From NCBI GenBank assembly GCA_017466125.1, contig JAFTUS010000017.1:1-39905 (forward strand): 39,905 bases of DNA, in the 5' to 3' direction. The DNA comes from Lentisphaeria bacterium (GTDB lineage: Bacteria > Verrucomicrobiota > Lentisphaeria > Victivallales > Victivallaceae). The translations under genes and the position numbers were made by a program. Below are positions 34,524 through 38,257 of this stretch, in pieces. The notes under the pieces were generated by a model. It saw nothing but the letters and a program-made list of their open reading frames with translations. It did not search any database and had not been told where the DNA came from. How positions within the stretch are numbered: position 1 is the first letter of the stretch; each line of letters opens with the position of its first letter.

Positions 34524-37040
34524 ATGAAATTTTATGCTGACACGATCTGTCATACGCTTGAAAACGGAGTGCAGGTCTACCTTTTTCCGCAACCGGTGAG
34601 TTCTGTTATCGTTCAGTGCGTTGTCCGCACCGGCAGTATCCATGAAAGTTCCGCCCTCGGATGCGGGCTTTCGCACTTCCTGGAACACATGATGTTTCAG
34701 GGATGCGACCGCTACCCCGGTACTTCCGCCTCGGATACCATCGACGCCCTCGGCGGAAACATCAACGCTTATACCAGTTTCGACCATACCAGTTACTACG
34801 CAGAAGCCGCCGGATACCATCTGCTCAAAATCATCGACGTGATCGGTTCAATGGTACGTCACCCCCATTTCCCCGAAGAACGTTTCAAATCTGAACGGGA
34901 AGTCATCCTCCGGGAACAGGAGTTGGGACAGGATAACCCCGACCACCGGCTGTTTGAGGTTTTCAACGGACTGCTCTACAAACATCATCCGCTCCGGGTC
35001 CCCATCATCGGACACCGGGAAATGATCGCCTCCGTCACCAGAGAAATGATGTGCAGTTACTACGAAAAACGCTACACCCCCGGACGCACATTCTGGGTCA
35101 TTACCGGAAATTTTGAACCCGCCGCCGCATTGGAAGCCGTCCGGCAGCAGATGGCAGACTGGACCCCTGCTCATCTCGCCGAACAACTCCTGCCGGAAGA
35201 ACCGCCCCTCTGTCAGCAGCGGAAAGAGACTTTTCAGTTTGACGACCCCCTGACCCGTCTGGCAGTCGGTTTCCAACTCCCGCCTGTCACCGACCGGGAT
35301 ATTCCGGCTCTGGATATTGCGTCGGGAATTCTGGCTCAAGGTGACGGTTCCCGCCTGATCCGTATTCTGAAAATGGAAAAAACGCTCGCCGTTACTCTGC
35401 GCAGTTACTGCATGTCCATCGCCGGACGGGGGTTTTCCGGCATCTTCGGTGCCGCCGTCCCCGCCAAACTGGCAAAATTGGAAACGGCTCTGCTCAAAGA
35501 ATTGGAAAATATCCGCAAAAACGGCTTTACCACCCCGGAAATCAAACGGGAAAAAACACAGCAGATGGCAGATACGCTCCGCAATCAGCGCAGTTTGAGA
35601 GAGGTCGCTGCCAACATCGTCAGCGGCGTTGTCGCCGCCGATTCCCCCGCCCTCTCCGACCGTTACATGGAACGGCTCAACGCCGTCACTCCCGATGAAG
35701 TCAACGCCGCCGCCGCAAAATATTTCAACGCCGATACTTTCGCCGTTGTCCGGCAGGAACAGCCGCAGAAACGAACCGTCTGCGCCGCCAAATGCAAGTC
35801 CGCCGCCATTCAGCCGCAGACTGCCGTTCTCGCCAAAGGGACCCGCTGCGTCACCATGACCGACCGCCGCCTGCCGCTGGTGGAGGTAAGTCTGCTGCTG
35901 CCGGGTGGGGCGATCTTTGAACCCGCCTCCATGACCGGCGTCAGCGGTCTCGTTGCCGATACGCTCTTTTCCGGTGCAGGAAAATACAGCGAAACCGCAC
36001 TGCTCGAAGCCTTCGACGCATGCGGCGCAGAAATCAACATCAATGCCGGGCTGAACTCCCTGATGCTGGATATGAGCGTGCCGCGCAAATCTTTTCGCAA
36101 AGCACTCGATCTGCTCGGAACAATGCTCGGCTCTCCCCGTTTTGAGGCAGATGCATCCGAACGGGAAAAACAGAACCGGCTGGAACTGATCCGCAGCCGC
36201 CGTCAGGACCCCAAGGCCCGCGCCGCCTTTGAGTGCAGCCGTCTGCTTTACGGCAATCATCCCTACTCCTGGGGAACGCTGGGGCTGGAAGAGGCTTTCG
36301 GGGCGATCACCCCGGAAGAGGCCGCCGCCTTTTACCGTTCTTTGTGGAACAGAGGTCAGGTCATCTTCGGTTTCGGCGGGGACTGCACCCCCGATGAGGC
36401 GTTTCGCTGGGGCTGTGAACTGGATGATATGATCGCTTTCAACGCTCCTGCAATACCGTTGCCGCCGCCCCCGGTGTTCCCGGCAGAACCGCAGACGAAA
36501 CACATCCTTCTGCCCCGCGAACAGACCGCCGTACTGCTGGCATTGCCCGGACCGCCGCTGAAAGATGACCGGCTCAATGACTGCGAGATCCTTCAGCACG
36601 CTGAAAACGGCTTGTCAAGCACGCTTTTCAAGCGCATCCGGGAAGATAATGCGCTGGCGTACACGACCGGATTTCAACTTTCCGGCGGTTTCCACGCCGG
36701 ACAATTCCGCTTCTTTGCCATCACCGGTGCCGCCTCTGCGGAAAAAGCGGCGGGTCTCCTCCGGGAAGAGGTACAGCGTCTGGCGGCGGAAGGTCTGACG
36801 GAAGCAGAATTCAACGCCGCACGCGAGGGTGCTGTTTTCGCCGTCAGCAAAATCGCCGACTCCGTGGCGGCGGCTCTGCCGGGCCTGCTGCTTGAACTGC
36901 ATTACGGGCATCCGGCAAACGAACTTTTCAGTCACCGTGAAAAACTGCTCGGGCGTTCAAGAGACGGGGTGAATAGACTGCTGAAAGAGTATTTTTCCAA
37001 TGCAGTAACCGTGGAAGTACACGCCGGAAAAATGCCGTAA
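34524..37040 (+). CDS. M16-family zinc metallopeptidase, two-domain
   Basis: 838 residues, no signal peptide. The inverted zinc motif H51-F-L-E54-H55 and the third ligand Glu131, 76 residues after the second His, fit the family rule. The N-terminal half is the active M16 domain; the C-terminal half (from about residue 430, KGTRCVTMTDRRLPLVEVSLLLPGG) repeats the fold without HxxEH, as in PqqL- and YmxG-related enzymes. AAAGGG precedes the ATG. It is the last gene of the ffh-Mla cluster. Substrate unknown; small peptides are expected for M16 chambers. Confidence 0.93.
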   Translation: MKFYADTICHTLENGVQVYLFPQPVSSVIVQCVVRTGSIHESSALGCGLSHFLEHMMFQGCDRYPGTSASDTIDALGGNINAYTSFDHTSYYAEAAGYHLLKIIDVIGSMVRHPHFPEERFKSEREVILREQELGQDNPDHRLFEVFNGLLYKHHPLRVPIIGHREMIASVTREMMCSYYEKRYTPGRTFWVITGNFEPAAALEAVRQQMADWTPAHLAEQLLPEEPPLCQQRKETFQFDDPLTRLAVGFQLPPVTDRDIPALDIASGILAQGDGSRLIRILKMEKTLAVTLRSYCMSIAGRGFSGIFGAAVPAKLAKLETALLKELENIRKNGFTTPEIKREKTQQMADTLRNQRSLREVAANIVSGVVAADSPALSDRYMERLNAVTPDEVNAAAAKYFNADTFAVVRQEQPQKRTVCAAKCKSAAIQPQTAVLAKGTRCVTMTDRRLPLVEVSLLLPGGAIFEPASMTGVSGLVADTLFSGAGKYSETALLEAFDACGAEININAGLNSLMLDMSVPRKSFRKALDLLGTMLGSPRFEADASEREKQNRLELIRSRRQDPKARAAFECSRLLYGNHPYSWGTLGLEEAFGAITPEEAAAFYRSLWNRGQVIFGFGGDCTPDEAFRWGCELDDMIAFNAPAIPLPPPPVFPAEPQTKHILLPREQTAVLLALPGPPLKDDRLNDCEILQHAENGLSSTLFKRIREDNALAYTTGFQLSGGFHAGQFRFFAITGAASAEKAAGLLREEVQRLAAEGLTEAEFNAAREGAVFAVSKIADSVAAALPGLLLELHYGHPANELFSHREKLLGRSRDGVNRLLKEYFSNAVTVEVHAGKMP

Positions 37041-37116
37041 TACGGGAAATCGGGTGTTTTTTTCACCAAAAACAATAAAAAAAACAATTTTTTTTAAAGA
37101 AATAGTATATTTGGTA

Positions 37117-37144
37117 TTGAAAAACTTTTTTTTTCGCTTATAGT
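37117..37144 (+). promoter_or_regulatory. Promoter of the candidate small RNA / exonuclease leader
   Basis: TTGAAA (37117-37122), 16-base spacer, TATAGT (37139-37144). Predicted initiation is about 37150-37152, where the base-paired stem of the RNA candidate starts. Confidence 0.65.
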
Positions 37145-37147
37145 AGT

Positions 37148-37248
37148 AAATGTTCGAGGTCAGATTTGTTCAGGCTCTATACGCAATTTCTCCTCTTCAT
37201 AATTACTCCTCTAAGCGTCTGGGCAACTGACCTTGAACGTTTTTTTTT
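37148..37248 (+). ncRNA. Candidate structured small RNA or attenuator leader
   Basis: The outer stem is GTTCGAGGTCAG (37152-37163) with CTGACCTTGAAC (37227-37238), 12 bp with one G-U, extendable to 16 bp with flanking A and T bases. The inner stem is TTGTTCAG (37166-37173) with CTGGGCAA (37219-37226), then ACGC (37181-37184) with GCGT (37215-37218). The 30-base apical loop holds CTCCTCT twice (37190-37196, 37206-37212). Nine T follow (37240-37248), so the RNA carries its own terminator, and a promoter ends directly upstream. It matches no RNA family I recognise; it lacks the SRP RNA tetraloop region and is too short for 6S. It could be a free sRNA of about 97 nt or a transcription attenuator for the exonuclease gene 14 bases downstream. 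Confidence 0.6.
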
Positions 37249-37261
37249 AGAAAGGGAAACT

Positions 37262-38257
37262 ATGAAAGATGAAATGATCCTGATCGATGCGTTTTCGCAG
37301 ATATTCCGCTCTTTTTTTGCGATCCGCCAACTTCTGACCAATTCCAGAGGGGAGCCGACCAATGCCCTCTACGTCTTTACCCGTCTGCTGCTGAAAATCG
37401 ACGCCGACTATCCCTCTGACTGCGGTGCGCTGCTTTTCGATTGCGGCAAACCGGCGTTCCGCACGGAACTCAACCCTGAATACAAAGCCAACCGCCCCCC
37501 CATGCCCGACGCTCTGCGCCAACAGTTGCCGGTGATCCGGGAAATGGCGGAGGCGTTCGGCTGGCCGCTGCTGGAAGAACCGGACTACGAAGCCGACGAT
37601 CTGATCGGCGCATTTGCGCTCCATACCCCGCGCAATGTGCGGATCGTTTCCAGCGATAAAGACCTCGGACAACTTATCAGCGACCGTATCACCATGCTCG
37701 TTCCCGCCCCGCAGAACGGTTTCTCCGTGCGGGATGCCGCCGCATGTCAGGAAAAATTCGCCGTCCCGCCCGAACTTCTGGTGGATTACCTTGCCATTAT
37801 CGGTGATGCCTCCGACAACATTCCCGGCATCAACGGCCTCGGCCCCAAAGGAGCCGCCGAACTGCTCAACACCTTCGGCAGCATTGATTCCTGGGTCGAT
37901 ACGATCGACGAAACCTTTGCCCAATCCAAATATGGCAAAAAATTGGCAGGAAACGCCCCTCTGCTGAAGAAAAACCAAAATCTGATACGTCTGCGTACCG
38001 AATTGCCGGAACGCTTCAGCGACCCCGAAAAACACCTTATCCGCCGACAGCCCGATTGGGCGAAGATACGGACGCTCTGCGAACGGATGGAATTGAAAAG
38101 CATCCTGAAAGATCTTCCGCAGGAGTCCATCCCGGCAGAACAGGAAGTTGAGCCGGATCTTTTCTCTTTTGCCGCCGTCCCGGAAGCGGCCCCCGTTGCT
38201 CCTCCCGAAGAACCGGGAGAGGCCAAAGAAGAAATGGTGCAGGGTTTGCTCTTTTAA
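37262..38257 (+). CDS. Stand-alone 5'-3' exonuclease (Pol I N-terminal domain type)
   Basis: 331 residues; ATG at 37262 behind AGAAAGGGA, since the upstream TTG extension overlaps the RNA candidate. PIN/FEN-like signatures are MILIDAFSQIFRSFFAI with Asp9, YKANRPPMPDALRQQLP, EADDLIGAFA and SSDKDLGQLI, followed by the helix-hairpin-helix segment IPGINGLGPKGAAELL. These metal-dependent flap and 5' nucleases remove Okazaki primers. The polymerase part is absent. A Pro/Glu/Ala-rich tail of about 40 residues ends in QGLLF, a good match to the bacterial sliding-clamp-binding pentapeptide. Whether a full-length polA exists elsewhere cannot be seen. Confidence 0.93.
   Translation: MKDEMILIDAFSQIFRSFFAIRQLLTNSRGEPTNALYVFTRLLLKIDADYPSDCGALLFDCGKPAFRTELNPEYKANRPPMPDALRQQLPVIREMAEAFGWPLLEEPDYEADDLIGAFALHTPRNVRIVSSDKDLGQLISDRITMLVPAPQNGFSVRDAAACQEKFAVPPELLVDYLAIIGDASDNIPGINGLGPKGAAELLNTFGSIDSWVDTIDETFAQSKYGKKLAGNAPLLKKNQNLIRLRTELPERFSDPEKHLIRRQPDWAKIRTLCERMELKSILKDLPQESIPAEQEVEPDLFSFAAVPEAAPVAPPEEPGEAKEEMVQGLLF

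Follow-up and report, generated by a model that had tools for sequence, protein, structure and literature searches.

A single-hairpin small RNA family of Victivallaceae with two Shine-Dalgarno-complementary motifs in one conserved loop

In Firmicutes, LhrC and RsaE/RoxS carry short unpaired C/U-rich motifs (UCCC) that base-pair to ribosome-binding sites, in many cases with redundancy. The alpha-r14/NfeR1 RNAs of rhizobia (alphaproteobacteria) fold into three hairpins with CCUCCUCCC unpaired in each, and their action on translation starts has been shown experimentally (PMC10746234). Yfr1 of cyanobacteria is 54–69 nt long and exposes one unpaired ACUCCUCACAC between two stem-loops (PMC2190773).

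The window, by which we mean the whole 39,905-nt stretch of Lentisphaeria DNA analyzed here, contains a predicted small RNA between an M16-peptidase gene and a 5′-3′ exonuclease gene (Table 1; Pfam 5_3_exonuc_N, 5.8e-46, and 5_3_exonuc, 3.7e-21). Folding of positions 37150–37250 yields a hairpin at 37150–37240, in which a 2-nt bulge separates an outer stem of 14 bp from an inner stem of 10 bp and the loop measures 35 nt (MFE −31.9 kcal/mol, z = −5.36; 0/200 shuffles as good), and one structure dominates. The two CTCCTCT copies in the loop start 16 nt apart. A preliminary description of the window had proposed a promoter TTGAAA-16-TATAGT, two exact CTCCTCT copies at this spacing and a stem closing onto nine T, all of which are present. 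Its architecture of a 12–16 bp stem, an 8-bp stem and a 30-nt loop was right in kind, with sizes that differ slightly from those of the fold. Elsewhere in the window, where the contig begins, positions 63–139 match a group II intron domain (Rfam RF00029, 48.3 bits).

Table 1. Features of the small-RNA locus and its flanking genes, in window coordinates.
Feature	Position	Strand	Evidence
M16-peptidase gene, other flank of the RNA	34524–37040		
σ70-type promoter TTGAAA, 16-nt spacer, TATAGT	37117–37144	+	1 found vs 0.6 expected in shuffles
Small RNA, predicted transcript ~97–100 nt	37150–37248	+	Ends predicted; fold, covariance-model matches, stem covariation
Outer stem 5′ arm, paired over 14 bp to 37227–37240	37150–37163	+	Fold and two-sided changes
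Inner stem 5′ arm, paired over 10 bp to 37217–37226	37166–37175	+	Fold; inner stem in nearly all members
Large unpaired loop, 35 nt, nearly invariant in the family	37179–37213	+	Fold and alignment
CUCCUCU copy 1, context UUCUCCUCUUCA	37190–37196	+	Sequence, alignment
CUCCUCU copy 2, context UUACUCCUC	37206–37212	+	Sequence, alignment
Inner stem 3′ arm	37217–37226	+	Fold
Outer stem 3′ arm, also terminator stem	37227–37240	+	Fold and covariation
T9 tract, intrinsic terminator	37240–37248	+	Sequence; T-rich tract after stem in nearly all members
5′-3′ exonuclease gene encoding 331 aa; its start codon lies 13 nt past the RNA	37262–38257	+	Pfam

CUCCUC is complementary to GAGGAG, and the loop that exposes it is unpaired and nearly invariant, as is characteristic of anti-Shine-Dalgarno RNAs. 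Like alpha-r14/NfeR1, the Victivallaceae RNA combines repeated, ultraconserved pyrimidine anti-Shine-Dalgarno motifs that are unpaired with stems that differ in sequence. However, in place of three hairpins each with an unpaired CCUCCUCCC it has one hairpin with two CUCCUCU copies in a single loop, and it occurs in a Lentisphaerota family where no Hfq was detected. With Yfr1 it shares a single-stranded ultraconserved motif, lineage-wide conservation and a terminator at the 3′ end; in contrast to Yfr1, no pair of stem-loops flanks an unpaired ACUCCUCACAC, the two copies of its CUCCUCU motif lie inside one large loop, and the phylum is another. LhrC and RsaE/RoxS differ in motif (UCCC rather than CUCCUC) and architecture, and no homology to them is found via Rfam. 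Alpha-r14/NfeR1 and Yfr1 are the closest systems by principle. The RNA belongs to neither and forms a new family, probably of the known anti-Shine-Dalgarno kind of sRNA.

With a covariance model (R1) built from 19 sequences, the element was identified in 49 of the 137 genomes searched in the order. All 49 are Victivallaceae, the family of the window itself, and include Victivallis vadensis; the element is nearly always present as a single copy (V. vadensis DSM 14823 and strain zth2 have one each). Among 388 genomes of the phylum, those outside Victivallaceae gave no R1 match under strict filters that could miss very divergent forms. A 108-base BLAST query recovered the element from all nine genomes of the genus and from many Victivallaceae genomes, and in a collection covering 84,980 species the 24-nt loop core has exact matches in 31 contigs, every one of them from Lentisphaerota. 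An exact search of viral contigs with a 23-nt loop core found none, leaving phage-borne copies unsupported. Rfam 15 assigns no family to positions 37000–37400 of the window (best match bglG-cis-reg, 20.9 bits against a required gathering score of 80) or to ten further loci with members. Departures from the single copy include two near-identical copies 5.5 kb apart in one genome (G021) and, in another (G085), an extra diverged copy away from the exonuclease. In addition, an intergenic segment of V. vadensis G007 (L079, 2304–2406) bears a weak likeness to the loop (27 bits, 84% over 32 nt). This segment has further GGAG-type boxes on the opposite strand and no good hairpin; it may be a decayed copy or a partner sequence.

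Alignment of the members supports the stem. In a sequence-based MAFFT alignment, 8 of 12 outer-stem pairs show two-sided changes, and covariation is 0.455 compared with 0.205 in shuffled and at most 0.151 in slid controls. Among 51 distinct sequences, two-sided changes occur in 12/12 modelled pairs, 92.5% of cells pair and covariation reaches 0.784 (0.273 shuffled, at most 0.155 slid), values from an alignment that was fitted to the covariance model and so favours it. Of the two controls, the shuffles ignore relatedness whereas the slid controls retain it. The 25 invariant alignment columns all lie within the loop, where the near-invariant stretch spans ~38 nt. Nearly all members form an inner stem and have a T-rich tract behind the hairpin, and most have a TATAGTA-like −10 and a TTTGAWWW-like −35 element just before the hairpin. 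In the divergent members (L128–L147) the loop is shorter and its letters changed, the spacing of the motifs differs and the CAU between them is altered in several, but both CUCCUC copies are kept; L147 fits the model most poorly and may not belong to the family. Both the compensatory changes and the conservation of the two copies had been named in the preliminary description as checks, and its proposal of a small RNA with two CUCCUCU motifs and its own promoter and terminator is upheld by them and by the conservation of the family. We are highly confident that the RNA family is real.

Pairing between the loop and translation starts was analyzed in 1.6 Mb of the zth2 genome, where GAGGAG lies in the Shine-Dalgarno window of 41 of 1,206 called genes compared with 3 in an upstream control stretch (~14-fold). 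At thresholds of −16, −18 and −20 kcal, 232, 121 and 56 genes pair with the loop at their starts, and the maxima for 60 shuffled loops were 222, 120 and 54; at −18 kcal or better the shuffled mean was 56. The excess over the best shuffled loop is small. In the window itself, the claim of the preliminary description that strong Shine-Dalgarno sites match the motif is only weakly borne out: AGGAG sites occur, and the full GAGGAG core, to which the motif would bind, is found at none of the called genes. We found no Hfq in 70 Victivallaceae genomes with a search that was positive in 5 of 14 control genomes. From these comparisons, action of the loop on Shine-Dalgarno sites is plausible, and we consider it probable that the RNA is a stand-alone, trans-acting sRNA of Victivallaceae that masks GAGGAG-type sites without Hfq.

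Candidate targets were sought in 2.0 of the 3.2 Mb of zth2. The top prediction is a nickel superoxide dismutase (Pfam Sod_Ni, 1.6e-26; −31 kcal), whose start reads AGAGGAG-caaaa-ATGAAGAGGA; the loop complement is AGAGGAG-taatt-ATGAAGAGGA, and both of its modules align in register with this start. The gene is present in 14 of 70 genomes. Its site is kept in a sister genome (G136, −26 kcal), is even stronger in G090, and is ordinary in other lineages; nine other RNA-bearing genomes combined give p ~0.05. G090, which is 73% complete, has the strong site, and the RNA itself was not found there. This pattern is suggestive of nickel superoxide dismutase as a candidate target in some lineages. In Victivallis, trxB is another candidate, with GAAGAGGAG in 4 of 9 genomes; trxB of the other genera read lacks GAAGAGGAG, and as the strong Shine-Dalgarno match is found mainly in Victivallis we rejected trxB as a family-wide target. 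No target conserved across Victivallaceae was found, and long loop matches in 46 family genomes reveal no recurrent gene or mRNA.

The loop can also be read as a generic antisense of SD-N5-AUG-AAG-AGG, a usual M-K-R start of exported proteins. In that case one RNA, in bacteria without detected Hfq, might hold down translation of the whole class of secreted and envelope proteins, with nickel superoxide dismutase among its strongest targets. Among the best 50 predicted targets in zth2, 23 are exported-like by a simple home-made rule (7.8 expected), and 0/80 shuffled loops reach this number; the 16S anti-Shine-Dalgarno sequence, used as a control, gave 9 and did not show the effect. The enrichment likely arises because M-K-R starts supply the codons AAG AGG that complete the match. 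When 463 genes of mixed origin, taken from other genomes, were ranked in this way, the effect was absent at the top (3/25 and 5/50 exported-like genes), in a set with only 48 exported genes and crudely called starts. We hold this class-wide role to be doubtful.

The neighborhood of the RNA bears on whether it acts in cis. Homologous structures, whose existence in relatives had been another proposed check, lie upstream of the exonuclease in most places and away from it in others. Of 51 distinct places, 36 have the exonuclease downstream in the same orientation at a distance of up to ~250 nt and 2 have it ~1.4 kb away, the gene upstream of the RNA varies, and in about a dozen species the start codon lies 12–20 nt beyond the hairpin match, which leaves little space for a second promoter. 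The linkage is old and genuine, and in the species with so short a distance the exonuclease mRNA probably reads through the terminator. These observations would fit an RNA that is a leader, with the hairpin serving as a terminator or attenuator in the exonuclease 5′ UTR and a ligand of the loop deciding read-through. However, the RNA is not always upstream of this gene: in 13 of 51 places, one of which (L116) has only 168 nt of downstream sequence, no exonuclease was found nearby, and these copies retain loop, stem and U-tract, with the next gene convergent in several. Therefore the RNA is not solely a cis attenuator, and its occurrence apart from the exonuclease favors a role in trans. In addition, three Victivallis genomes (L004, L006, L008) have a TTGACA box between RNA and exonuclease, and the one fold computed for the window copy is dominated by a single structure in which no antiterminator is apparent. 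We regard the leader as an unlikely account of the family. The preliminary description had left the choice between a regulator in trans and an exonuclease attenuator; the attenuator alone does not hold, and read-through is likely where the start codon is close.

The conservation of the loop raises the alternative that, in place of pairing with mRNAs, it is the target of an RNA-binding protein or acts as a sponge for a second regulatory RNA. Invariance over ~38 nt exceeds the need of two Shine-Dalgarno-pairing motifs, the near-invariance of the letters outside CUCCUC (CUAUACGCAAUUU) is not accounted for by such pairing, and a conserved mRNA target was not found. The motif spacing and the letters between the motifs nevertheless vary in divergent members, which would be odd if one protein covered the loop. 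In zth2 the loop shows a preference for pairing with translation starts, and no candidate partner RNA for a sponge was identified; we judge this alternative quite improbable. The reverse complement of the loop resembles a translation start (SD-AUG-AAG-AGG-AGA), as would be expected of a long antisense to one mRNA start, for example that of a prepilin, or of a minus-strand mini-gene MKRRNCV. A 771-aa gene of V. vadensis G007 (L080, C30:3867) does carry an 18-nt perfect loop complement at its start (GAGGAGTAATTATGAAGA); judged by eye, this gene looks like an ornithine/lysine/arginine decarboxylase, and it is a possible species-specific target. Nevertheless, a recurrent gene is absent among the 46 family genomes, the prepilin starts of the window genome read AAGGAGAACAAAAAATGAAACAA and differ from the loop complement, and changes of +1 and −4 nt disrupt the mini-gene frame. 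The reading as an antisense to a single mRNA or as a mini-gene is largely refuted, and we give it very little credence.

In the window genome (G000, 3.8 Mb) the prepilin N-terminal methylation domain PF07963 is matched at least 140 times, a very large expansion. Several prepilin genes (L033, L036, L043, L047 and others) have, directly at their 5′ end, a ~125-bp repeat with inverted ends (TTCGCATAATATTGATTATGT ... ACATAATCAATATTATGCGAC), the right end of which supplies the ATG of the prepilin frame (MRRFTLIELL...). The repeat has at least 10 near-identical copies, some with no prepilin after them, and has the look of a small mobile element by which genes acquire an upstream region and a start codon.

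As a trans-acting sRNA, the Victivallaceae RNA could work as follows. The stem would hold the loop open, end transcription and stabilize the RNA without Hfq, and each CUCCUC module would pair with Shine-Dalgarno sites of the GAGGAG type. In the mRNAs that match best, the second module would cover the Shine-Dalgarno sequence and the first the AUG and codons 2–4 (AAG AGG), such that ribosome binding would be blocked. Where the exonuclease start lies just past the U-tract, read-through of the terminator would probably make the exonuclease mRNA, and the RNA would double as its leader.

A brief literature search returned no description of an sRNA family restricted to Victivallaceae, and within the scope of that search this appears to be the first such family with comparative support. 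Post-transcriptional regulation by the RNA is directly testable in V. vadensis DSM 14823 and in zth2, owing to its single copy in each. The family offers a clean case of an sRNA whose terminator is probably read through for a downstream gene in some species and which is freed from that gene in others, and it seems that the anti-Shine-Dalgarno principle is at work here in a lineage without detected Hfq.
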